This document shows, one piece after another, positions 7,459 to 59,618 of a stretch of 64,000 nucleotides of DNA (position 1 is its first letter; the number at the start of each line of letters is the position of its first letter). The notes under the pieces were generated by a model, which was given only the letters and a program-made list of their open reading frames with translations, was not told the origin of the DNA and searched no databases. Position numbers and translations under genes: made by a program. Source of the DNA: Acetomicrobium hydrogeniformans ATCC BAA-1850 (GTDB lineage Bacteria > Synergistota > Synergistia > Synergistales > Acetomicrobiaceae); NCBI RefSeq assembly GCF_000160455.2, contig NZ_ACJX03000001.1:1436001-1500000 (forward strand), read 5' to 3'.

Positions 7459-7929
7459 ATGCCGCGAAAGGGGCATGTGATTAAAAGGAAGGTTCACCCC
7501 GATCCTTTATATAAGAACGAAGCAATAGCCAAGTTTATTCATTGTGTCATGTACGATGGCAAGAAGAGCATTGCCGAACGTATAGTATACGGAGCCTTAG
7601 AAGTGGCTGCAAAGAGGCTAAACGTATCTCCCGATGAGGTTTTCGATAAAGCTTTGGAGAACGTTAAACCCCTCATAGAGGTCAGGCCGCGGAGGGTCGG
7701 AGGAGCTACTTATCAGGTTCCAGTGGAAGTAGACCCCGCCAGAGCTCAGGCCTTGGCGATAAGGTGGATAATAAACAGCGCCAGATCTCGTAAAGGCATT
7801 CCCATGATCGAGCGCCTTGCCAGGGAATTTGTAGATGCTTACAAGGGAGAAGGATCAGCGGTAAAGAAACGTGAAGATACCCATAGAATGGCTGAAGCAA
7901 ACCGAGCTTTTGCCCATTATCGCTGGTAA
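7459..7929 (+). CDS. rpsG: 30S ribosomal protein S7
   Basis: S7 is the primary assembly protein of the 30S head and contacts E-site tRNA. The 156-aa length is typical. It begins [10 protein letters not shown] and contains the conserved [16 protein letters not shown] loop and the C-terminal [22 protein letters not shown] strong aaggagg precedes the ATG. It lies 20 bp after rpsL and 30 bp before fusA. Confidence 0.98.
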
Positions 7930-7959
7930 TATGGTAATTAGGGTGGTGATTTGTAAGGC

Positions 7960-10035
7960 ATGAGCGATGCAGGAATAGATATTCGCAAAATACGCAATAT
8001 TGGCATAGCAGCGCATATAGATGCAGGCAAAACGACGACATCGGAGCGCATTCTTTTTTATACGGGGAAAATACATAGAATAGGCGAGGTGCACGAAGGC
8101 GCCGCTACGATGGACTTCATGGACCAGGAGCGCGAAAGGGGCATTACCATATCCTCGGCAGCTACGACGTGCTACTGGAAGGAATATATGATCAATTTGA
8201 TTGATACGCCCGGGCACGTGGACTTTACTATGGAAGTGGAAAGATCGCTCAGAGTGTTGGATGGAGCGGTCGCCGTCTTTTGCGCTGTAGGAGGAGTTGA
8301 ACCGCAGTCAGAAACGGTTTGGCGCCAGTTGGACAAGTACAGGGTGCCCAGAATTGCTTTCGTGAACAAGATGGACAGGGTGGGCGCAAATTTCTTCGAC
8401 GTTATGAAGCAGATTAAGGAACGGTTAGGGGCAAACCCCGTTCCCATACAGCTGCCAATGGGCGCCGAAGATGCCTTTAAGGGCATCATCGACCTCATAA
8501 CGATGCAGGCAATCGAGTACGCCGACGAGCTTGGAACCCGCTTGGAGTTGGAAGAGATACCTCAGGCTTTTCTGGCAGAGGCCAAAAAATGGCGTGAGCG
8601 CCTGATAGAGGCCTTAGCCGAAGTTGACGACGAAATCATGGAATCCTACCTCGAAGGCCGGGAAATATCGGAGGAGAGCATAAAAAGGGCTCTGCGTTTC
8701 GGTACCATAAGTCTAAAGCTGGTTCCCATGCTTTGCGGATCGGCCCTCAAAAACAAAGGGATTCAATTGCTTTTGGATGCGGTGATCGATTACCTTCCGT
8801 CTCCCTTGGACATTCCCCCTGTAAAGGGAGTCGATCCGCGAACGGGAGAGGAAGTTATCCGCCATACCGATGCGGAGGCGCCCTTTACGGCACTGGCTTT
8901 CAAAGTGTTGGTGGATCCATACGTCGGTCGGGTCGTTTATACGAGGATATATAGCGGAAAGCTGCACACCGGAATGTCGGTGCTCAATACGAACACCGGG
9001 AAGAAGGAGCGTATAGGGAGAATATTGAGGGTGCACGCCAATAAACGTGAGGACATCGAATCGGCCTTGGCCGGCACGATAGTGGCCATTCCCGGCCTTA
9101 AGAACACGAGGACGGGAGATACGCTTTGCGACGAAAAGGGGCCCGTCGTATTGGAGGGGATGAACATACCCGAACCGGTCATTTCTTTGGCCATCGAACC
9201 GGCAAGCAAGGCCGACCAGGTCAAGCTGTCAAAGGGTTTGGCTGCCCTTGCGGAAGAAGACCCGACATTTAGGGTTGCCATAGATCACGAGACGGGGCAA
9301 ACGATCATATCCGGTATGGGCGAGCTTCACCTGGAGATTATAGTAGACAGGCTGCGTAGGGAATTTGGAGTTGACGTCAGGGTTGGCAAGCCTCAAGTTG
9401 CTTACCGTGAAGCCATAAAGAGGCCCGCCAGAGGAGAGGGCAAGTTCATACGCCAATCCGGCGGTCGCGGCCAGTACGGCCACGTGGTGCTTGAAATAGA
9501 AGCCCTCCCGGGACATACGGGATACGAGTTTGAAGACAGGATCGTGGGGGGCGTGATACCCAAAGAATTTATACCTGCCGTACAAAAGGGTGTAGAAGAA
9601 GCCTTAACCAGTGGTGTCGTTGGGGGATACCCCGTCATAGGCATAAAGGTTGCGCTGGTGGACGGGAGCTTCCATGAAGTCGACAGCTCCGAGATGGCCT
9701 TCAAGATAGCTGCGTCTATGGCTTTCAAGGAGGCAATGAAAAAGGCAGATCCTGTTTTGATGGAACCTATTATGGAGGTGGAGGTAGTAACGCCCGAGGA
9801 ATACCTTGGAGATGTTATGGGAGACCTCTCATCGCGCAGAGGGCGGATCGAGGGCATGGCCACTCGATCGGGAGCAAAGGTTGTCAAGGCCTACGTTCCT
9901 CTGTCCGAGATGTTCGGTTATGCCAGTGCACTGAGGAATAAAACCTCGGGAAGGGCTACGTTTACGATGAAATTCAGCCACTACGAAGAAGTTCCTTCCG
10001 AGGTGGCGGAAAAATTATTAGCATCGGCATCTTAG
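7960..10035 (+). CDS. fusA: Elongation factor G
   Basis: EF-G is the GTPase that catalyses ribosomal translocation. The 691-aa protein has the complete five-domain layout: G1 AHIDAGKTT (about residues 17-25), switch [11 protein letters not shown]4 NKMD, and the domain IV and V blocks [11 protein letters not shown] and [24 protein letters not shown]. Length and motifs are those of a canonical EF-G, not a tetracycline-protection or EF-G2 paralogue. The start follows a gggtggtgat Shine-Dalgarno. Confidence 0.98.
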
Positions 10036-47599: not shown

Positions 47600-47616
47600 A
47601 GGAACAGGTGATTTAT

Positions 47617-50325
47617 ATGTCATTAAGCATTTGGCAGGAAAACATCGAGGAGTTGAAGAAACGCCAGCCTAAACTGGCCGCGTTGCTCGAAAAAGAAAGG
47701 AAATCTTATATCGAAAGCAGGACGCGCCTGATCCCGGATATTACACAGACCCCTAGCGGCCTTTGGATTAAAAGCCCTAATCGGCCTTTTTTCGAGCCCT
47801 TTAAGGGCAACAACGCTAAAGATGTCCCGAAAAATGCCTGCCTTTTTGTGGTCGGTGCCGGCAGCCCCAGCTATTTTACGGCCCTCTTTAAGTCCATGAG
47901 CTGGTCGGCCATGGCTGTCATAGTAGTAGAGCCGAACATTGACCTCTTGTTTTGGCTTTTTGAAGAAGTATCGGTATATAAGCTTCTTCCGCCGTTTATT
48001 CGTTTGGGCTTTGCGATAAGCGACGAAGACGATCTCGTTTTGGAGCTTTTGGACACGACCGTTACACCTCTTGGGACCTTTACTGCAGGCGATTTGGGAT
48101 ACGTGATTCATAAAGGCGAATGCGAGGACCCAAAACCTTTTAACGAAATCCTGGCAAAGCTCAAAGAACGCATTTTGATAAACCTTCAAATGATCGGAAA
48201 TTCCGTCGAAGACACTTTGCTTGGCTTAAGACAGATGGCCCTGTCTTCTCCGTGGATCGCCTTCGGTCCCAAGTTAAGGACTTTAAAGGGAGCTTTCAAG
48301 GGAAGGCCTTCCGTCGTGGTCTCTGCGGGGCCCTCTTTGGATAAAAATTTTCATCTCCTCAAGGGCAGAGAAGACAGGTTACTCATAATAGCCACCGATA
48401 CGGTGCTGCGCAAGCTTCTTAAAAACGGCATAAGGCCTCATATCGTATGCGCCCTCGAAAGGGGCCTTGCCGTGCTCGACAAACACTTCCGTGACGTCAT
48501 AAGAGATTACGAAGAAGAGCTCAAAGACGTTTTGCTTATTGTCCAGTCCGTGTGCGTGCCCCAGATAGTCGGCACCTGGCCCGGCCCTAAAATCGTCGTG
48601 GGAAAGGCAGGTTTGCCCCTTGACTACTGGGTGGTCGGCCAGCTTTTGGACGGCGACGTAATTCCTTCGGGAGCTTCCGTTGCCCACATGTGCATGAATA
48701 TAGCCGCCTTGCTTGGATCCGATAAGATTGCCCTTATCGGGCAAGACCTTGCCTACGGAGAGGAAGGTACTACCCACAGCAGCGATACGGCATGGTCCAA
48801 GGAAAAATCGGGCGATGCAATGATCTCCGAAGAAAATCGCATCCCGGTTCCTGGAGCGTTGGGAGGCAGCGTATTCACTCACGGCATATGGCTCATGTTC
48901 CTGCGTATTTTTGAACAGATGATAGGCTCCTTGGCTGAAGGAGGCCTTCGGGTTTATGACTGTACCGAAGGCGGCGCTTTGATCAGGGGCACGGAAGTGA
49001 TGTCATTTAAGGATTTTACAGATGGCTTCGTGGACTCTATTGAGGGTCTTCCTATTTTACCGCAAGAAGTCGTCATTCAAGATACGGATAAGGATTGGCG
49101 TGGGTTGGCGGATAGCCTGCTTAAAAACATCGATGATGGCATTAAGGGCTTTGCATTTTCGCTTGAGCTGCTGCAAAAGCTGGAGGAAGAAAAAAAGCGA
49201 GTTGTCTCCCCCGGCCTTCCGCCGGCAAGAAGGCAAAAGCTTGCCTATGAGACTTCGGCCGTAATAGATGCCTTGCATGCCCAAAACAGGGTCCTGGAGT
49301 TTTTAGGACAAACTTACGCCTACGCTACTTTGCTTGAGATAGTAAAGACCCGCACCCTGGAAAACATGGAGATGATAACCAGATGGGAAAAGGCCCATGA
49401 TGATCTCATTGCCGCCCATCGTGTGGCCGCCAACTTTACGATTCAATGGCTGACCTACATAAAAGACACCATACAGGGCTTTAAAGAGGCAGGAGAAAAA
49501 GGCTTATCCTTTGGCCTTGCCCCTGCAGACGAAGAGGCTGCCCGCGGTTGCCTTGAATCACTGCTTGAAAGCAATACGGATGACGAAGGAGACATGGGGA
49601 GATTTCGCAAACCTCTGATCGACAACCTCCTTGCAAGGTGCGATCCCCTCTCTGCCGATTGGCCTTACAAACTGCTTTGGAAATTGGCACTCCACCTCGA
49701 GAGTGAAGGACGGGCTGAAGAAGGGTGTGCCTACATGCAGAAGATTGCAGGTCTTCTTGAGGACCGCGAAGTGGAAAGAACAGAATCCGCCGGGGTGCTT
49801 AAGACTTGGGCACGGCTTCTGGCAGCCCCCGACCTCTGTCGTTTGCCTCAGTTTGAGATGGCAAGGCTTATTTTAAGCAACGCCCTTCGTTACGCTCCCA
49901 ATGACGAAGAGATACAGAAGATGTGGGTATTTTTGATAGAACAGGAAGGTCAACTCTTCGGGGATCTTAAGGGGTTGGACCCTGAAAATGCAGTCATTAA
50001 GTGGCGTAAAGAAAAGGCAGATGTGGAAAAGTTCGTTATCCGTGGCGAAATGTACGAAGCCTTACATAAAGCATGGCACATGGTCGAAATGTTTCATGAG
50101 GTACTGCCGAATGAAAGCCGAGAAATAGCTCATTGGTGCCTTTCTACGGCGGAAAAGCTCTTGGATATTCGTGCCGAGGCAAGCGCAGAGCTAACATCAC
50201 TCATGCGTCGTGTGCGCAATGGCCTTCCAATTATAGAAGAGCTTAAAGTTCCCGTTACGCCAAAATTGGCTCAAAAAATTTATCCGGGATATGAATTAAA
50301 GTTTTTGCCGACAAAGGCCGAATAA
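47617..50325 (+). CDS. Maf-type motility-associated glycosyltransferase (DUF115)
   Basis: The 902-aa protein belongs to the motility-associated factor family, which transfers nonulosonic acids such as pseudaminic acid to flagellin Ser/Thr. The DUF115 core has SAGPSLDKNFHLL (about residues 235-247), DTVLRKLLKNGIRPHIVCALE and GASVAHMCMNIAALLGSDKIALIGQDLAYGE. An alpha-helical C-terminal part (about 500-902) looks repeat-like. It lies between flgL and flagellin and upstream of the pse genes, exactly the context expected for flagellin O-glycosylation. The acceptor and sugar are inferred from context. Confidence 0.9.
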   Translation: MSLSIWQENIEELKKRQPKLAALLEKERKSYIESRTRLIPDITQTPSGLWIKSPNRPFFEPFKGNNAKDVPKNACLFVVGAGSPSYFTALFKSMSWSAMAVIVVEPNIDLLFWLFEEVSVYKLLPPFIRLGFAISDEDDLVLELLDTTVTPLGTFTAGDLGYVIHKGECEDPKPFNEILAKLKERILINLQMIGNSVEDTLLGLRQMALSSPWIAFGPKLRTLKGAFKGRPSVVVSAGPSLDKNFHLLKGREDRLLIIATDTVLRKLLKNGIRPHIVCALERGLAVLDKHFRDVIRDYEEELKDVLLIVQSVCVPQIVGTWPGPKIVVGKAGLPLDYWVVGQLLDGDVIPSGASVAHMCMNIAALLGSDKIALIGQDLAYGEEGTTHSSDTAWSKEKSGDAMISEENRIPVPGALGGSVFTHGIWLMFLRIFEQMIGSLAEGGLRVYDCTEGGALIRGTEVMSFKDFTDGFVDSIEGLPILPQEVVIQDTDKDWRGLADSLLKNIDDGIKGFAFSLELLQKLEEEKKRVVSPGLPPARRQKLAYETSAVIDALHAQNRVLEFLGQTYAYATLLEIVKTRTLENMEMITRWEKAHDDLIAAHRVAANFTIQWLTYIKDTIQGFKEAGEKGLSFGLAPADEEAARGCLESLLESNTDDEGDMGRFRKPLIDNLLARCDPLSADWPYKLLWKLALHLESEGRAEEGCAYMQKIAGLLEDREVERTESAGVLKTWARLLAAPDLCRLPQFEMARLILSNALRYAPNDEEIQKMWVFLIEQEGQLFGDLKGLDPENAVIKWRKEKADVEKFVIRGEMYEALHKAWHMVEMFHEVLPNESREIAHWCLSTAEKLLDIRAEASAELTSLMRRVRNGLPIIEELKVPVTPKLAQKIYPGYELKFLPTKAE
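50297..50325 (+). promoter_or_regulatory. Sigma-28-type promoter for flagellin
   Basis: An exact TAAAGTTT at 50297-50304 is followed after 12 bp by GCCGAATAA at 50317-50325, the consensus GCCGATAA with one inserted A. It lies within the last codons of the Maf gene and predicts a flagellin 5' leader of about 130 bases. The 12-bp spacer equals that of the flgM promoter. Confidence 0.7.
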
Positions 50326-50463: not shown

Positions 50464-52782
50464 ATGAGAGTTTACCACAATATTCCTGCTTTATTTACCT
50501 ACAATGCTTTAAACGGCACCAATGAATCCCTGCAGAAATCCATTAACAAGCTATCTACAGGTTTAAGGATCAACACGGCCGCTGACGATGCCGCTGGTCT
50601 TGCCATAAGCGAGAAGATGCGGGCTCAGGTGAGAGGCCTCGACATGGCCGTAAGGAATGCCCAGGACGGCATATCCATGATCCAGACGGCAGAAGGCGCC
50701 TTAAACGAGACCCACTCGATCCTTCAAAGGATGAGGGAACTGGCTGTCCAGGCTGCAAACGACACGTTAACGGCAAACGACCGCCAGGTCATCCAGCTTG
50801 AAATCGATCAGCTGAAAGAAGAGGTGGACCGTATCGCCTCCACAACGCAGTTCAACAAAAAGAAACTGCTCGACGGCACGGCTTCCGTCCTTTGGTCTGC
50901 GGATAAGTTAGAAACCAAGGCCTTTGTGCGAGGCAGTCTGCGCCAGGTCGACCAGTTCGGCCAAAAGGCGGCCGCCGAGGGCAACTTCAAGATTTCCATC
51001 AACGCCACCCCTGGCCAGGGGCAGATCCAGAAGAGCGACGTCTTCAAGATCAAGCACGAAAACGTCATGATGAACGTGAGCGTGAATACCCTCGAAGGCG
51101 TAAACGATGTCAGCATTGACGGCTTGCCTGCCGGGGATTACAAGCTTAACCTCGAAAGGATGACCACTGCAACTGCAATAACTGCAGCTGCGAACCGGGT
51201 GAGCTGGTATGGCTTCAATGGTCTTAAGGCCTTGGGAAGCGGCGCTAGCGCAAACGCCAACATCCTTTTTGAGGTCGTCAATGTTGATACCGAAGCGAAA
51301 CAGGTAACGTTCCGCGGCGTTTCTTACGTATTGGACAAAAACGGTAATTTAACGAACTACGTCGATGAGAATATCGTTGTAGGAATCGAAGGCTTGTCGT
51401 CGTATACTGGCTTAGGAGTTACACTTGTTCTATCGGGAATTAGCGATTCTAATATCGTAAATGCCAATGAAGGTGACAAGCTCGTCTATCAAGTCAATGC
51501 TGATGTAGCAAAAGATGATATCGTAGCAACATGGTCCGCAACTATTAATTCCGACTGGCCTCTCGGCTGGGCCGGGACAAATAAGTTCGAATTTGCATTT
51601 AACAAGGCAGGTGTCGACAACAAGACCGTCCACTTCAGGACGTTCTACCTCAATACCGCAAACGGCGTCACTTACGAGGGCGATATCAGCGCCCGCTTCG
51701 GTGACTTGACAAATATTGCATCAGGCGAGACTGTGACGGGCGCGAGCTTCACCGCGGCTTACGTCGGGCAAGTCGCAGCTAACGACGTCATGCTGCGCGA
51801 CCTCGACCGCTTCTGGGATCCCAACGGGCGCTTCTTGCTTGAAGACCCTCAAACCATAACGCTTATACAGGGTGACGGAACAAAGGCTTCCGTTACGCTA
51901 TACGCCACGGACACGATCAGAAACGTCCAGGAAAAGCTCAATGACGCTATTCGTGACCAGTTGGGCCAAGGTCAATACGTGTCGAGCAATGCCGACAAGT
52001 TTGTGACCTACGTGTCCGAAGACGACGAGGCGTCCAATACGCCCGAGGCCGTCGCCGGGACCTTCGTTATCCGAAGCGTAATTGCCGGCACCAACGGCGA
52101 AATATCCTTCGCCGGCGACGAAGATGTCATAAAAGCTTTGAGCTTGAGCGTAATTCAAGAATCGAAGGAAAACGAGTTCCGCGTGTCCGCCCAGGATGCC
52201 CATAGCGGTGCCACCGTCGCCTCAAACGTAAAGGTGACGGGAAACCTGCTCATCGGCATAGTGCACCCCAACGTTGATGTCGAGTTCGACCCAATGGCTG
52301 ACATTGGTGTGTCGTGGAATGCCAACACGAGGCAATTTGAGCTCGCTGCCGAAAGCGGCACTTACGAGACTTCCTTGCACTTGGCGGACAACTCCACGGT
52401 ATTCCAGATCGGCGCCAACGAGAGCGAAGACATGGGTGTTGACATAGGCGACATGTCTGCGCGCTCGCTCGGTATCCATAGGGTGCTTGTGACCGACCGC
52501 GATTCAGCGGCCCGTTCCATCACGATCATAGACTCCGCCTTGGACCGCGTCTCAAGCCAACGGGCAAAGCTCGGCGCTTACCAAAACAGGTTGGAGCACA
52601 CCATAAATAACCTTAACACCGCTTCTCAGAACCTGACCGCTGCCGAAAGTCGCATCCGCGACCTCGACATGGCAAAGGAAATGATGAACTTCACGAAGCT
52701 GCAGATCTTGATGCAGGCCGGCAACGCTATGCTCGCCCAGGCAAACACCCTGCCTCAGGCCGTGTTGCAGTTGCTGCGGTAG
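50464..52782 (+). CDS. fliC: Flagellin with a large central domain (772 aa)
   Basis: This is the filament protein. The N-terminal D0/D1 region (residues 1-140) has LQKSINKLSTGLRINTAADDAAGLAISEKMR and the LQRMRELAVQAANDT motif that TLR5 recognises in other flagellins. The C-terminal D1/D0 region (about 690-772) ends NTLPQAVLQLLR. Between them are about 550 residues of beta-rich, Ser/Thr/Asn-rich, hypervariable surface domain, far above the roughly 200 of a typical 500-aa flagellin. No signal peptide is present, as expected for export through the flagellar channel. It is the likely target of the adjacent Maf and pse system. Confidence 0.95.
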   Translation: MRVYHNIPALFTYNALNGTNESLQKSINKLSTGLRINTAADDAAGLAISEKMRAQVRGLDMAVRNAQDGISMIQTAEGALNETHSILQRMRELAVQAANDTLTANDRQVIQLEIDQLKEEVDRIASTTQFNKKKLLDGTASVLWSADKLETKAFVRGSLRQVDQFGQKAAAEGNFKISINATPGQGQIQKSDVFKIKHENVMMNVSVNTLEGVNDVSIDGLPAGDYKLNLERMTTATAITAAANRVSWYGFNGLKALGSGASANANILFEVVNVDTEAKQVTFRGVSYVLDKNGNLTNYVDENIVVGIEGLSSYTGLGVTLVLSGISDSNIVNANEGDKLVYQVNADVAKDDIVATWSATINSDWPLGWAGTNKFEFAFNKAGVDNKTVHFRTFYLNTANGVTYEGDISARFGDLTNIASGETVTGASFTAAYVGQVAANDVMLRDLDRFWDPNGRFLLEDPQTITLIQGDGTKASVTLYATDTIRNVQEKLNDAIRDQLGQGQYVSSNADKFVTYVSEDDEASNTPEAVAGTFVIRSVIAGTNGEISFAGDEDVIKALSLSVIQESKENEFRVSAQDAHSGATVASNVKVTGNLLIGIVHPNVDVEFDPMADIGVSWNANTRQFELAAESGTYETSLHLADNSTVFQIGANESEDMGVDIGDMSARSLGIHRVLVTDRDSAARSITIIDSALDRVSSQRAKLGAYQNRLEHTINNLNTASQNLTAAESRIRDLDMAKEMMNFTKLQILMQAGNAMLAQANTLPQAVLQLLR

Positions 52783-53536: not shown

Positions 53537-54541
53537 ATGAATATAGATGGCAAAGTTGTTTTACTTACCGGCGGGACCGGGTCGTTTGGAAAAAAATTTA
53601 CCCGCACACTCCTTGAAACCCAAAAGCCCAAGGCTGTAAGGATTTTTTCTAGAGGAGAATATTTGCAGTACCAGATGCGCCAAGAATTCGATGATGATCC
53701 TAGGCTAAGGTTTTTCATAGGAGACGTCAGGGACAGGGAGCGCGTATACCGTGCGATGAACGGCGTAGATATAGTCGTTCATGCCGCTGCCTTAAAGCAG
53801 GTCCCGACCTGCGAGTATAACCCCATCGAAGCCGTAAAGACCAATATCGACGGGTCGGCAAACGTCATAGATGCTGCAATAGATAACGGCGTTGAAAGGG
53901 TCATGGCCATCAGCACGGACAAGGCCGTGCAGCCCGTCAACCTCTACGGAGCTACAAAGCTTGTCGCGGAAAAGCTCTTCGTTCAGGCCAATGCCTACAC
54001 TGGGAGCAGAAAGACTAAATTCAGCGTCGTTCGCTACGGAAACGTCGTGGGAAGCAGAGGAAGCGTGGTGCCTTTGTTTTTAACCCAGCGGGAAAAGGGC
54101 AGGATAACGCTTACCGACGAACGGATGACCAGGTTTTGGATCACCCTGGAGCAGGGGGTGTGTTTTGTCATCGACTGCATCGGCAGGATGCAGGGCGGTG
54201 AGATTTTTGTGCCCAAAATTCCAAGCATGCGCTTAGTTGACCTTGCTGACGTCTTGGCTCCGGGGATATGCAAGGAGACCATAGGCATACGTCCGGGCGA
54301 AAAACTTCACGAATGCCTGATTACGGCAGAAGAGGCAAGACACGCCAGAGAATATGATGGCTTTTACGTCATCGAACCGGAGCATTCCTTTTGGAAGAAG
54401 GATGACGACGACGGCGGTACGCCTTTGCCAGACGGTTTTTGCTATACCAGCGATAGCAACGGCTGGTGGCTTACGGGAGAAGAACTTAAAAACATGGTCG
54501 AAAGCCTGGACGACTACGCAAAACAAGGCAAGGTGGATTGA
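53537..54541 (+). CDS. pseB: UDP-GlcNAc 4,6-dehydratase (inverting)
   Basis: PseB catalyses the first step of pseudaminic acid synthesis: UDP-GlcNAc to UDP-2-acetamido-2,6-dideoxy-L-arabino-hexos-4-ulose. The 334-aa SDR enzyme has the NADP motif TGGTGSFG, the catalytic STDKAVQPVNLYGATK (Asp128, Lys129, Tyr137, Lys141) and the family signature HAAALKQVPTCEYNP. The C-terminal TSDSNGWWLTGEEL is also typical. It starts a compact operon through pseI after a 253-bp gap. Confidence 0.95.
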   Translation: MNIDGKVVLLTGGTGSFGKKFTRTLLETQKPKAVRIFSRGEYLQYQMRQEFDDDPRLRFFIGDVRDRERVYRAMNGVDIVVHAAALKQVPTCEYNPIEAVKTNIDGSANVIDAAIDNGVERVMAISTDKAVQPVNLYGATKLVAEKLFVQANAYTGSRKTKFSVVRYGNVVGSRGSVVPLFLTQREKGRITLTDERMTRFWITLEQGVCFVIDCIGRMQGGEIFVPKIPSMRLVDLADVLAPGICKETIGIRPGEKLHECLITAEEARHAREYDGFYVIEPEHSFWKKDDDDGGTPLPDGFCYTSDSNGWWLTGEELKNMVESLDDYAKQGKVD

Positions 54542-54543
54542 GC

Positions 54544-55737
54544 TTGGACGATAAAAATATTTTAGCTGTAGAGGGAGGTAGTCCCGTAAGAGTTACTCTC
54601 TTGCCTTACGGGCGTCAGTATATAGACGAGGACGATATAAAAGCGGTCGTCGACGTGCTGCGATCGGATTGGCTGACCACGGGGCCCAAAGTGGCGGAGT
54701 TTGAAAAGCGCTTTGCCGAAACGGTCGGGACTAAATATGCCGTCGCCGTAAACAGCGGCACGGCAGCCCTTCATGCCGCAGCCTTTGCTGCAGGCATAAC
54801 TTCGGGAGACGAGGTCATAACGACGCCCATGACATTTGCTGCAAGCGCAAACTGTGTGCTTTACTGTGGGGGACGCCCCGTCTTTGCCGATGTTGAAGCT
54901 GACACGCTGCTTTTGGACCCTTCTTGTGTGGAGTCAAAGATATCGCCCAAAACTAAGGCGATAATTGCAGTAGATTACGCCGGTCAACCCTGCGATTACG
55001 ATGCCTTAAAAAAACTTTCCGATGAACACGGTCTTATCCTCATAGCCGATGCCTGCCATGCGCTGGGTGCTACGTACAAAGACCGTAAGGTCGGAACGCT
55101 TGCCGATATGACCGTCTTCAGCTTTCATCCCGTAAAGCACATAACTACAGGCGAAGGCGGCATGGTAGTAACAGATAATCCTGATTTTGCCGTAAAATTG
55201 CGTGCCTTTAGAAACCACGGCATTACCACGGACCACAGAGAGCGTGAGGTAAGTGGCTCATGGTTTTACGAGATGGCCGAACTGGGCTACAACTACAGGT
55301 TGCCCGACATAAACTGCGCCTTGGGATTAAGCCAGTTAAAGAAGCTCGATAAATTCGTGGCAAGAAGAAGGCAAATAGCTGCCCTTTACGATTCGGCCTT
55401 TGTTGATATGCCCGCACTTTCTCCATTAGCCCAACGGGACGACAGAAAGTCTTCGTATCATCTTTACGTAGTTAGGCTTAATTTAAGCAAGCTTAACGCG
55501 AGTCGCCTTCAGGTGTTTGGCGCCCTGCGGGCCGAAAACATCGGCGTTAACGTGCACTATATTCCCCTTTATTGGCATCCTTATTACAATAAGTTGGGTT
55601 ACAGAAAAGGTTTGTGTCCTGTGGCGGAGAAGGCTTACGAAGAAATCGTTACGCTTCCCTTGTTTCCTGCGATGAGTGACAGTGACGCCGAGGATGTTAT
55701 AAAAGCAGTTAAAAAAGTGCTTAAGCATGTACGCTGA
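54544..55737 (+). CDS. pseC: UDP-4-keto-6-deoxy sugar aminotransferase
   Basis: PseC transaminates the PseB product to UDP-4-amino-4,6-dideoxy-N-acetyl-beta-L-altrosamine. The 397-aa PLP enzyme of the DegT/DnrJ/EryC1 family has AVNSGTAALHAA, ADACHALGATY, the PLP lysine in FHPVKHITTGEGG (Lys198) and NYRLPDINCALGLSQL. The TTG at 54544 is chosen because aaggtgg lies 7 bases upstream; TTG 54538 overlaps the pseB stop and is too close to that site. Confidence 0.93.
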   Translation: MDDKNILAVEGGSPVRVTLLPYGRQYIDEDDIKAVVDVLRSDWLTTGPKVAEFEKRFAETVGTKYAVAVNSGTAALHAAAFAAGITSGDEVITTPMTFAASANCVLYCGGRPVFADVEADTLLLDPSCVESKISPKTKAIIAVDYAGQPCDYDALKKLSDEHGLILIADACHALGATYKDRKVGTLADMTVFSFHPVKHITTGEGGMVVTDNPDFAVKLRAFRNHGITTDHREREVSGSWFYEMAELGYNYRLPDINCALGLSQLKKLDKFVARRRQIAALYDSAFVDMPALSPLAQRDDRKSSYHLYVVRLNLSKLNASRLQVFGALRAENIGVNVHYIPLYWHPYYNKLGYRKGLCPVAEKAYEEIVTLPLFPAMSDSDAEDVIKAVKKVLKHVR

Positions 55738-55767
55738 ATAAATTAAAGCCTTTTGGGGTGAATGAAC

Positions 55768-56484
55768 ATGACTCGCATAGTAGCTATAATTCAAGCCCAC
55801 ATGGGAAGCACGCGCCTACCGGGTAAAGTGTTAAAGGGTTTGGCAGGAAAACCTGTGCTTACCAGAGTCGTAAACCGCGTGCGAAGGGCTAACTTGCTGG
55901 ACGAGGTCGTCGTGGCAACCACGACAAAGCCCGGAGACGATGTCCTGGTAGACATGTGCAAAAGCGAAGGCTGGTCTTGGTTTCGCGGAAGCGAAGAGGA
56001 TGTGTTGGACCGTTATTACAAGGCGGCAAAACAGTTTTCTGCCGATGTGGTCGTTCGTATCACATCGGACTGTCCTTTGATAGAGCCTGAAGTTACTAAT
56101 TTGGTGATTAAAGAATTCATCGAGACAAAACCGGATTATGCACATACCCGTAATTATCCGCGCGGACTTGATACAGAGGTCTTTGGCTTTGGCGTTTTGG
56201 AACGAATATGGCATGAGGACAAAAACCCCGCTTGGCGCGAGCATGTTACGCCTTATATTTACCGCCATCCAGAAAAATTTAGCATAAAGGACGTTTGCTA
56301 CGATGAAGATCTGTCTTTCATGCGCTGGACGGTGGACACCCAGGAAGATCTGGAATTCGTCCGCCGCATTTACGACCATTTTGGGCACGATTTGTTCTCC
56401 TGGCGCGAGGTGCTAGATTTGTTAAAAGAACACCCCGAATGGCTTGAGATTAATAAACACATTGTGCAAAAGACACTGCCATGA
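55768..56484 (+). CDS. Cytidylyltransferase-like sugar nucleotidyltransferase (SpsF/PseF type)
   Basis: The 238-aa protein starts with a nucleotidyltransferase motif (IIQAHMGSTRLPGKVL) and contains RITSDCPLIEP, features shared by CMP-nonulosonate synthetases and SpsF proteins. In this operon it most likely activates the nonulosonic acid with CTP, the PseF role. The sequence reads more like SpsF than like Campylobacter PseF, so substrate identity is uncertain and I leave the symbol empty. The ATG at 55768 fits ggggtga; it overlaps pseG by 4 bases. Confidence 0.8.
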   Translation: MTRIVAIIQAHMGSTRLPGKVLKGLAGKPVLTRVVNRVRRANLLDEVVVATTTKPGDDVLVDMCKSEGWSWFRGSEEDVLDRYYKAAKQFSADVVVRITSDCPLIEPEVTNLVIKEFIETKPDYAHTRNYPRGLDTEVFGFGVLERIWHEDKNPAWREHVTPYIYRHPEKFSIKDVCYDEDLSFMRWTVDTQEDLEFVRRIYDHFGHDLFSWREVLDLLKEHPEWLEINKHIVQKTLP

Positions 56485-57548
56485 GTTTGGTAGACAATCA
56501 CGTTTTATTGGTACGCGTCGACTCCGGCATAAATATAGGTAGCGGCCATGTAATGCGCTGTCTTGCCCTGGCTCAGGCTTGGCAGGATGGCGGTGGAGAT
56601 GTGGTGTTTGTCTTAGCACCGAAATCACCTAACGCAGAAGCAAGACTCACTGCCGAAGGGTTTGAGGTCCTTTATATAAACGCGAAGCCAGGCAGTGCGG
56701 AGGATGCGCGTTTGACGACGAAACTGGCGCATAAATATGGGGCATCATGGGTCGTTGTTGACGGATATCACTTTGGCGGAGATTATCAAAAGATCATAAA
56801 AGAAGCAGGCTTAAATCTTTTGTTCATCGACGACTACGGACATGCAGACTATTACCCGGCCGACATAGTCTTAAACCAAAACATACATGCCGACGAAAAT
56901 CTTTACTTAAACAGGGCTTCTTATACGAAACTTTTGCTTGGAACCCGCTACGTGCTCTTAAGGCGTGAGTTTTTAAGCTGGCAAGGTTACAAGCGGGAAA
57001 TACCAAAGATTGCCCATAAGATGCTTGTCACGATGGGGGGAAGCGACCCGCAAAACGTTACGCTAAAGGTGCTTCAGGCGTTAAAAAATATCGACATAGA
57101 CGGCTTTGAAGCACTTTGCGTAGTTGGCGGCAGCAATCCTCACTACGGTGCCTTAATAGATTTTGTTGAAACTGCAAATTTGCCTGTTCGCATCGAAAGA
57201 GACGTTAAAGATATGTCTCAGCTGATGGCCTGGGCTGATGTGGCTATAACGGCAGGCGGCACAACCTGTTGGGAACTGGCGTTTATGGGGGTACCGTTCA
57301 TTATTGTGGTTCTTGCAGAAAATCAACGATTGGCAGCTGAATATCTTGACAATCTTGGTTATGCCGTGAACTTAGGATGGTATTGTAACCTATCGCTGTC
57401 AGATTTAAATGAAGTTATCATGAGTTTATTGCTAGATAAAAAACGTAGGATTGATATGTCTTGGCTTGGACAGGTATCAATCGATGGTAGCGGTGACAAA
57501 AGAATAGTAAATCTTTTAACCAGAAGTTTAGCGAATTATGAATGTTAA
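56481..57548 (+). CDS. pseG: UDP-2,4-diacetamido-2,4,6-trideoxy-altropyranose hydrolase
   Basis: PseG removes UDP to release the free 2,4-diacetamido sugar. The 355-aa GT-B-type protein has GSGHVMRCLALAQAW with the catalytic His23, VVDGYHFGGDYQ, GGSDPQNVTLKVL and the nucleotide-binding end AGGTTCWELAFMGVP. It follows the cytidylyltransferase with an ATGA overlap. No PseH acetyltransferase domain is fused to it, although PseG-PseH fusions exist elsewhere. Confidence 0.92.
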   Translation: MSLVDNHVLLVRVDSGINIGSGHVMRCLALAQAWQDGGGDVVFVLAPKSPNAEARLTAEGFEVLYINAKPGSAEDARLTTKLAHKYGASWVVVDGYHFGGDYQKIIKEAGLNLLFIDDYGHADYYPADIVLNQNIHADENLYLNRASYTKLLLGTRYVLLRREFLSWQGYKREIPKIAHKMLVTMGGSDPQNVTLKVLQALKNIDIDGFEALCVVGGSNPHYGALIDFVETANLPVRIERDVKDMSQLMAWADVAITAGGTTCWELAFMGVPFIIVVLAENQRLAAEYLDNLGYAVNLGWYCNLSLSDLNEVIMSLLLDKKRRIDMSWLGQVSIDGSGDKRIVNLLTRSLANYEC

Positions 57549-57564
57549 GTGAGGACAACGCTCG

Positions 57565-58539
57565 ATGAACGTCCTAATCACCAGCGTTTCCCGTAAGGTA
57601 TCGCTCGTAAAAGCCTTTCGCCGGGCTTTAAGCGAAGAAGGCGGGGGAAAAGTAATAGCAATAGACGCAAGCCCAAAGTCCGCAGCGCTGTATTTTGCGG
57701 ATATGGCATACATTGTCCCGACAGGTTTGGGTGAAAACTTTCGTGAGATAGTGCAGAATATTTGCGTTAGGCACGAGATTAAACTTCTCATACCTACGAG
57801 GGACGAAGAGCTGCCCTTCTTTGCCCGGGAGCTGGGAAGGCTGAAAGATATAGGTGTATGCGTGATGGTTTCAAGCTCGCATACTATTAAAGTATGTCAG
57901 GACAAAGGTCTGTTCGTTGAATTTTGTTTGAAACACGGCTTTTCAGCGCCTAAAACTTATAAAGAAACGGATATAGATTTAGATTTCCCCCTTTTCGTCA
58001 AGGACAGGTTTGGCAAGGGAAGCAAAGGCGCGTTTCGCGTGAATTCAAAACCTGAACTGGATTACTTTTTAAGCCGTCTAAAGGACCCGATCGTTCAGGA
58101 ATATGTTGAGGCACCGGAATATACCGTTGATCTGTTTGCGGATTTCGCGGGTAATATATTGAGCGTAGTTCCCCGTCAGCGATTGTCGGTATTTGGAGGT
58201 GAGTCGTTCATAGGCAGGACGTGCAAAAATTGGGATATAATTAACGAATCGATGCGCTTGGCCAAAGCCTTAAATTTAATCGGCCATAACACTATTCAAT
58301 GTTTCTTGCATAACGGAGAAGTAAAGTTCATAGAAGTCAATCCCCGCTACGGAGGGGCAGCAAACCTTGGCTTCGCTGCCGGTACGTTTACGCCTCGAAT
58401 GCTTGTGCGCCTTGTTTTAGGCAGAGAAGTCAAACCATGTGTCGGAGATTTTAAGGATAATCTGTATATGCTTCGTTACACCGACGATATCTTTGTTGAT
58501 GAAGATAAAATGAAACAAATTGCGCATTTTATCGAATAG
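57565..58539 (+). CDS. ATP-grasp ligase of unknown substrate in the pse operon
   Basis: The 324-aa protein has an N-terminal Rossmann-like domain (LITSVSRKVSLVKAFRRAL), and an ATP-grasp domain with KDRFGKGSKGAF (about residues 149-160), QEYVEAPEYTVDLF and the metal-binding FIEVNPRYGGAANLGFAAG (Glu257, Asn259). It resembles carbamoyl-phosphate-synthase-like ATP-grasp proteins that occur in sugar and nonulosonate clusters. ATP-grasp enzymes ligate a carboxylate to an amine or thiol, so it could acylate the sugar amine; this is inference. It lies 16 bp after pseG and 26 bp before pseI. Confidence 0.82.
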   Translation: MNVLITSVSRKVSLVKAFRRALSEEGGGKVIAIDASPKSAALYFADMAYIVPTGLGENFREIVQNICVRHEIKLLIPTRDEELPFFARELGRLKDIGVCVMVSSSHTIKVCQDKGLFVEFCLKHGFSAPKTYKETDIDLDFPLFVKDRFGKGSKGAFRVNSKPELDYFLSRLKDPIVQEYVEAPEYTVDLFADFAGNILSVVPRQRLSVFGGESFIGRTCKNWDIINESMRLAKALNLIGHNTIQCFLHNGEVKFIEVNPRYGGAANLGFAAGTFTPRMLVRLVLGREVKPCVGDFKDNLYMLRYTDDIFVDEDKMKQIAHFIE

Positions 58540-58565
58540 ATGGAATGTGAAAGGAGCCGGGGTAA

Positions 58566-59618
58566 ATGGGTACAACTTTTGCAATTAATAATCGTGATAT
58601 AGGACCTGGTTATCCTACCTACATAATTGCCGAGATGTCGGCTAACCACAGTCAGTCTTTCGAGCAGGCCGCGGAAACCGTACACGCTGCCAAGGCGGGA
58701 GGGGCTGACGCTATAAAGCTTCAAACATATACCCCCGATACCATGACCGTTAAATCGGATTCTCCCCTTTTTTGTCATAAATCCGGTAGCCTTTGGGAGG
58801 GCAAATCTCTTTACGACCTTTATTCCGAAGCCTATATGCCCTGGGAATGGCAGCCCAGACTAAAGGAGATAGCAAACGATATGGGACTTGACCTGTTTTC
58901 TACCGCCTTCGATCCGACGGCCGTTGATTTTTTGGAGGAAATGAACGTCCCTGTTCACAAGGTGGCTTCCTTTGAGATCGTCGATATCCCATTGATCGAA
59001 AAGATGGCCAAAACGGGAAAGCCTTTGATAATTTCCACCGGCATGGCAACTTTGGCTGAAATAGATGAAGCCGTAACCGCGGCCAAAAGGGCAGGAGCTA
59101 CACAAATTGCTCTGCTTAAGTGCAACAGCGCATATCCGGCGCCCCCTGAGGAGATGAATTTGCGCACGATACCTCACATGGCCGAGGGCTTTGGCGTACC
59201 CGTAGGGCTGTCCGACCATACCCTGGGCATAGAAGTGCCCATTGCTGCCGTTGCTATAGGAGCCTGCATAATAGAAAAACACTTCACATTGTCACGCGAT
59301 ATCCCAAGCCCTGACAGGGCATTTTCCATAGAACCTCACGAGCTTAAGGCTTTGGTCGATGCCGTAAGGAGGGCCGAAAAGGCCTTAGGCAGGGTTTACT
59401 ACGGCGTCAGCGAAAAGGAAACGCAAAGCAGGGTCTTTAGGCGATCCTTGTTTGTGGTAAAGGACATGAAAGCCGGCGAAACCTTTACCGAAGAAAACGT
59501 ACGTTCCATCCGCCCCGGCTACGGCCTCCCTCCCAAATTTTTAAAGGAAGTTTTAGGCCGAAAATCCGCACGGGACATAAAATGCGGGACACCGCTTTCG
59601 TGGGATTGCATATCGTAA
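58566..59618 (+). CDS. pseI: Pseudaminic acid synthase
   Basis: PseI condenses the 2,4-diacetamido sugar with phosphoenolpyruvate to form pseudaminic acid. The 350-aa protein has the NeuB-family barrel (residues about 10-275) with YIIAEMSANHSQ, GADAIKLQTYTPDTMT, STAFDPTAVDFLEEM, and SDHTLGIEVPIAAVAIGACIIEKH (landmark). A C-terminal SAF antifreeze-like domain follows (about 290-350). The EMSANH motif favours PseI over NeuB (EIGxNH). It closes the operon. Confidence 0.94.
   Translation: MGTTFAINNRDIGPGYPTYIIAEMSANHSQSFEQAAETVHAAKAGGADAIKLQTYTPDTMTVKSDSPLFCHKSGSLWEGKSLYDLYSEAYMPWEWQPRLKEIANDMGLDLFSTAFDPTAVDFLEEMNVPVHKVASFEIVDIPLIEKMAKTGKPLIISTGMATLAEIDEAVTAAKRAGATQIALLKCNSAYPAPPEEMNLRTIPHMAEGFGVPVGLSDHTLGIEVPIAAVAIGACIIEKHFTLSRDIPSPDRAFSIEPHELKALVDAVRRAEKALGRVYYGVSEKETQSRVFRRSLFVVKDMKAGETFTEENVRSIRPGYGLPPKFLKEVLGRKSARDIKCGTPLSWDCIS

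Follow-up and report, generated by a model that had tools for sequence, protein, structure and literature searches.

We propose that an ATP-grasp ligase takes the place of the acetyltransferase PseH in a pseudaminic acid (Pse) operon of Acetomicrobium hydrogeniformans ATCC BAA-1850, located in the 64,000-nucleotide stretch of DNA analyzed here (the window). The enzyme would acylate the PseC product at its 4-amino group and so lead to a pseudaminic acid whose N-acyl group at C7 is not acetyl and is most probably glyceroyl, a reading to which we assign a probability of roughly 70%. The gene content of the operon, the absence of PseH, the homology of the ligase, its placement, and its separation from PseH across loci are read directly from the sequences. 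The case for PseH replacement is built on four lines taken together: the slot occupied by the gene, the mutual exclusion with PseH, the clade to which the protein belongs, and the precedent of a related enzyme.

The six pse genes (53537-59618, forward strand) form a compact operon, in which adjoining ORFs overlap slightly or sit less than 30 nt apart, in the order PseB, PseC, SpsF-like cytidylyltransferase, PseG, ATP-grasp protein, and PseI (Table 1). PseB, PseC, PseG, and PseI all score above their NCBIfam equivalog cut-offs, in agreement with the initial annotation, and the CMP-transferase listed there is the SpsF-like protein, which falls far below the PseF cut-off (TIGR03584) and which we propose to be a CMP-Pse synthetase replacing PseF. 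The ATP-grasp ORF indeed lies between pseG and pseI, and the operon is without PseH as had been claimed: no GNAT domain is present in the ATP-grasp protein, and a domain-model search of the PseG protein found none fused to it. Upstream of the operon lie a Maf/PseD-like transferase and a flagellin, judged from their sequences to be the probable user and the probable acceptor of the sugar, respectively. Immediately downstream is a YhgA-like putative transposase (PF04754; 60181-61134).

Table 1. Pseudaminic acid operon and upstream flagellin genes in the window.
Feature	Position	Strand	Evidence
Maf/PseD-like flagellin glycosyltransferase	47608..50325	+	MptE-like 130.1 bits; PseD domain model 137.3, cut-off 670 not reached
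Flagellin	50464..52782	+	flagellin models match both ends
PseB, UDP-GlcNAc 4,6-dehydratase (inverting)	53537..54541	+	TIGR03589 499.6 bits, cut-off 407.75
PseC aminotransferase, source of the 4-amino sugar	54538..55737	+	TIGR03588 499.2 bits, cut-off 423.5
SpsF-like cytidylyltransferase	55762..56484	+	PF02348 (CTP_transf_3) 125.2 bits; TIGR03584 28.6 bits, cut-off 205.7
PseG, UDP-sugar hydrolase	56481..57548	+	TIGR03590 236.6 bits, cut-off 153.55
ATP-grasp ligase, PylC-like_N + ATP-grasp_3, 324 aa, ATG start	57565..58539	+	Pfam matches
PseI, pseudaminic acid synthase	58566..59618	+	TIGR03586 488.8 bits, cut-off 340.25; cut-off of the NeuB model not reached

A same-genus genome (L032) carries an ortholog of the ATP-grasp protein that is 92% identical and in the same operon position, and in this same-genus comparison the dN/dS of the gene is 0.15, against 0.07-0.18 for the other operon genes. 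The ORF at 57565-58539 is therefore a real gene and not a chance ORF, and it is under selection comparable to that on its operon neighbors. The protein scores 71.0 bits with PylC-like_N (PF21360; cut-off 27), 56.8 bits with ATP-grasp_3 (PF02655; cut-off 23.2), and 56.5 bits with ATPgrasp_Ter (cut-off 29.1). Residues K114, K146, E185, Q245, E257, N259, and R261, which we take to be the ATP- and Mg2+-binding and catalytic residues of the ATP-grasp fold, are all present and are kept in 100 to 104 of the 104 rows compared. The predicted structure (pLDDT 94.1) has 2pn1 from Exiguobacterium, itself of no known function, as its top PDB match (E=9.6e-31, TM 0.85-0.90), followed by biotin carboxylases, PurK, PurT, and an L-amino acid ligase. 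Domain scores, conserved residues, and the modeled fold all agree in indicating membership of the ATP-grasp superfamily. The best family model was NF009405 (PRK12767) at 294.7 bits, below the curated cut-off of 390, and assignment to these carbamoyl phosphate synthase-like proteins (PRK12767.1-4) was rejected; the Neisseria-type relative in L264, described below, reached 389.4 bits against the same cut-off. A PylC identity was likewise rejected (TIGR03909, 31.6 bits against 248.3), carbamoyl-phosphate synthase and RimK identities were ruled out by score, and a PHROGs search with the protein gave no match.

The reaction, its acceptor, and the order of steps are inferred. PseB and PseC would form UDP-4-amino-4,6-dideoxy-beta-L-AltNAc; the ligase, taking PseH's step in the pathway, would spend ATP on converting a small carboxylic acid to its acyl phosphate and attach the acyl group at the 4-amino position; PseG would then remove UDP from the acylated sugar, PseI would carry out the condensation with phosphoenolpyruvate, the SpsF-like enzyme would make the CMP sugar, and Maf would transfer the sugar onto flagellin. 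The acylated 4-amino group of the hexose would become N-7 of the nonulosonate, and in the predicted pseudaminic acid C5 would bear N-acetyl and C7 some other N-acyl group. The ligase would thus share with PseH (TIGR03585) an operon slot and a pathway step, although PseH has a GNAT fold and uses acetyl-CoA and the ligase has no sequence or fold relation to it.

The slot itself could be compared across loci. In two pse operons of the window's phylum, PseG bears a C-terminal fusion to a PseH-like GNAT; one of them (L034; PseB, PseC, cytidylyltransferase (CT), PseG-GNAT, PseI) has otherwise the order of the window, and the other (L031), whose operon holds additional genes, encodes a flagellin 85% identical to that of the window. 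Further pse loci of this phylum have a separate PseH adjoining PseG. As the GNATs of these loci are fused to PseG or lie next to it, the position filled here by the ATP-grasp gene is that of PseH. In some loci, the interval between PseG and PseI contains a formyltransferase-like gene, in many cases accompanied by a PIG-L deacetylase, and no separate PseH (L031 at 7796-9180, L176, L187, L197, L198, L200, and L202, some of them read from sequence starts only); in L031, these genes coexist with the GNAT-fused PseG. Judging from these arrangements, the acylating enzyme of pse operons looks exchangeable. A methyltransferase-like protein, mostly starting with an LGFxxLDPxP-like motif, was also seen in pse loci L175, L080, L082, L201, L071, and L210, and the Nitrospirota loci and L079 have an epimerase in its place.

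Relatives of the ligase are widespread, a scan of named genomes having found at least 80 of them at 31-57% identity. The nearest among the matches listed come from Nitrospirota, Methanobacteriaceae, Chitinilyticum, and other proteobacteria and typically lie in the order PseG, epimerase or methyltransferase, ligase, HAD protein, PseI. Remoter relatives share their loci with a bacterial sugar transferase (phosphoglycosyltransferase), a DegT aminotransferase, and a member of this HAD family, and L095, L097, and L106 each encode a single protein that combines sugar transferase and ligase. A tree built by a quick method placed the window protein, with a support of 100, in a clade of 21 rows spanning bacteria and archaea, 20 of which are in pse loci, with the remaining one on a 3.9 kb contig. 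Residues K11, R79, F117, C121, S214, and L238 are fixed or nearly fixed in this pse clade and are not found in the sugar-transferase-linked group, which has I79 and T117 at two of these positions, a pattern that would fit a changed acceptor.

A precedent for the proposed reaction came from five genomes of the order of Chitinilyticum (L264-L268), in which a 205-aa sugar transferase, an ATP-grasp protein, and an HAD protein are encoded in that order, the ATP-grasp proteins being 32-33% identical to that of the window over the whole length. This layout is the one described for Neisseria pglB2-ORF8; the genomes would thus be Neisseria and ORF8 the HAD gene. In Neisseria, PglB2 (ATP grasp/phosphoglycosyltransferase) gives a glyceramido-acetamido trideoxyhexose (GATDH) and PglB, with an acetyltransferase, gives diNAcBac (PMC11130364), so that the homologous ATP-grasp protein acts where the sister pathway has an acetyltransferase. 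The C-terminal domain of PglB2 was proposed to transfer a glycerol moiety instead of acetyl (PMC6959607), and the acceptor used by PglB2 corresponds, in the D-gluco series, to the PseC product. A known but unrelated function of the ATP-grasp family had been held in advance to speak against acylation of the 4-amino group; the function found, formation of a 4-glyceramido sugar by PglB2 (PMC11130364, PMC6959607), is a related one. The window ligase differs from PglB2 in standing alone within a pse operon, in its own signature residues, and in its predicted L-altro rather than D-gluco acceptor. No PglB2-like phosphoglycosyltransferase (PF02397) is fused or adjacent to it, its neighbors being PseG and PseI, and the HAD partner is absent from the window genome, where a model search with positive controls gave a best score of 38.5 bits against 244-316 in the controls.

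Glycerate is our leading guess for the acid, by analogy with PglB2. The initial annotation had suggested "an amino acid or other acid"; the precedent would favor the second part of this wording, as a hydroxy acid (glycerate), over the first. Since the HAD partner is missing from the window genome, the acid may be a different one or may be drawn from general metabolism, and the same absence lends some weight to a tentative alternative in which the ligase works at the PseH step but adds an acid that is not glycerate, either an amino acid such as alanine or glycine or an acid of another kind. The modeled structure is similar both to biotin carboxylases and to L-amino acid ligases, and the wider family scores weakly with the PylC and MfnD ligases, both of which are consistent with this alternative. 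Glycerate is nevertheless favored by PglB2, the only characterized relative as recognized by layout, which is linked to glycerate (PMC11130364), and by the position of the window protein within a clade in which most of the other proteins are accompanied by the HAD gene.

The relation between ligase and PseH was then scored across pse loci. In the window's phylum these were sampled through PseG, and in two other phyla, that of Magnetobacterium (296 genomes) and that of Chitinilyticum (398 genomes), through PseI. A segment of up to 20 kb surrounding each match was scored with a ligase HMM and a PseH-derived GNAT HMM, a strong GNAT being one above 70 bits, and the 85 loci with both PseI and PseG were counted. 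The ligase was not used for sampling; L221, where it was known beforehand, was excluded, and the same-genus operon L032 is one of the six ligase loci. The expected co-occurrence of ligase homologs with pse operons lacking PseH was found: a strong PseH-like GNAT was present in 53 of the 79 ligase-free loci and in none of the six with the ligase (Fisher p=0.002), in a sample where ligase loci are few and related loci are not independent. The direction was the same in all three phyla, none being significant singly (p 0.13-0.15), and a laxer GNAT threshold (25 bits) in the two outer phyla gave p=0.11, owing to one weak match in L201. Nine additional complete pse loci found via the ligase had no GNAT, and in none of the 19 genomes or records with the ligase, most of them with a pse locus, did PseH reach its cut-off. 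As around one third of the ligase-free pse loci are also without a strong GNAT, the absence of PseH alone is weak evidence. Together with the PglB2 precedent, the absence of PseH and this co-occurrence support the earlier proposal that the ligase acylates the 4-amino group.

One exception, a methanogen MAG (L081) found outside the 85-locus sample, has the ligase, the HAD gene, and a GNAT-fused PseG. It would suit a different model, which we consider unlikely, where the ligase modifies the finished nonulosonate, for example as an ester or amide at C8 or on another amine, and N-4 is free or acetylated by an unrecognized enzyme. The position of the gene after pseG and before pseI is also in keeping with such a late step, as are the acylated Pse derivatives that Campylobacter flagellin carries on top of N-acetylation (PMC3068675). 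However, the neighborhood of the PglB2-type relatives, with its phosphoglycosyltransferase and UDP-sugar enzymes, points to action while the sugar is still UDP-linked, ligase and PseH occurred together in none of the 85 sampled loci, and the only candidate acetyltransferases of the genome are four unrelated GNATs.

These four proteins emerged from a search of the whole genome (2.12 Mb in 8 contigs, 99.9% complete), in which the best PseH (TIGR03585) score was 17.2 bits against a cut-off of 93.1, Acetyltransf_3 had no match, and Acetyltransf_1 matched the four only, one of them above the RimI cut-off and the remaining three generic. None is near the operon and none matches the PseH model at E≤0.001. 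The suggestion that PseH is encoded elsewhere in the genome was thus not borne out by profile searches. That one of the four acetylates the PseC product, so that the flagellin sugar is Pse5Ac7Ac and the ligase serves some other purpose, is the least probable reading, even if three of them have no assigned role and divergent PseH-like domains in other loci also fall far under the TIGR03585 cut-off, since those divergent domains, unlike the four, do match at E≤0.001.

The predicted C7 N-glyceroyl class of pseudaminic acid exists in nature, as Tannerella forsythia makes a 7-N-glyceroyl Pse (Pse5Am7Gra; PMC6388019), for which the candidate gene of the glyceroyl step was called elusive (PMC6120980); the T. 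forsythia cluster, likened here by description only, was reported with pseH, unlike the window operon (PMC6120980). Campylobacter flagellin carries di-O-methylglyceric acid derivatives of Pse (PMC3068675). ATP-grasp proteins are also found in the flagellin modification loci of Shewanella (SfmE) and C. difficile (CDR20291_0245), but their descriptions, with an ATP-grasp_4 domain and other pathways, set them apart from the window ligase (PMC3765264, PMC5207246).

PglB2 is already a known case of an ATP-grasp enzyme that acts on a UDP-4-amino sugar in an acetyltransferase's stead, whereas the use of such an enzyme in the pseudaminic acid pathway, as a separate clade, appears to be new: in the literature covered, mostly outside subscription journals, no paper was found linking an ATP-grasp enzyme to pse operons without PseH. 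We are inclined to go somewhat further and suggest that a cross-phylum subfamily, marked by K11, R79, F117, C121, and S214 and with members in methanogenic archaea as well as bacteria, substitutes for PseH and thereby defines a class of Pse with a C7 N-acyl group derived from a free acid. The N-acyl groups of pseudaminic acids help set how hosts, phages, and lectins see flagella and capsules, and annotation usually presumes acetyl. If the clade does replace PseH, operons now read as Pse5Ac7Ac producers would make other products, and the product class would be predictable from the signature residues. The proposal would also supply a candidate family for the enzyme of the 7-N-glyceroyl Pse step and place the exchange of acetyltransferase for ATP-grasp enzyme, as between Neisseria PglB and PglB2, in a second pathway.

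The distribution of the ligase offered a few more observations. G016, a genome of the window's own species with 99% completeness, gave no match for PseG, the ligase, or flagellin, and either the island is variable or there may be an assembly gap. In another family of the window's phylum (L053, L057, L058, and L059), the ligase adjoins a cytidylyltransferase; no PseG match was found in these genomes, and a NeuB-like ORF, read from the sequence, lies beside the ligase in L053 and L059. Two Methanobacteriaceae MAGs (L079 and L081) carry a bacterial-type pse operon that includes both the ligase and the HAD gene.
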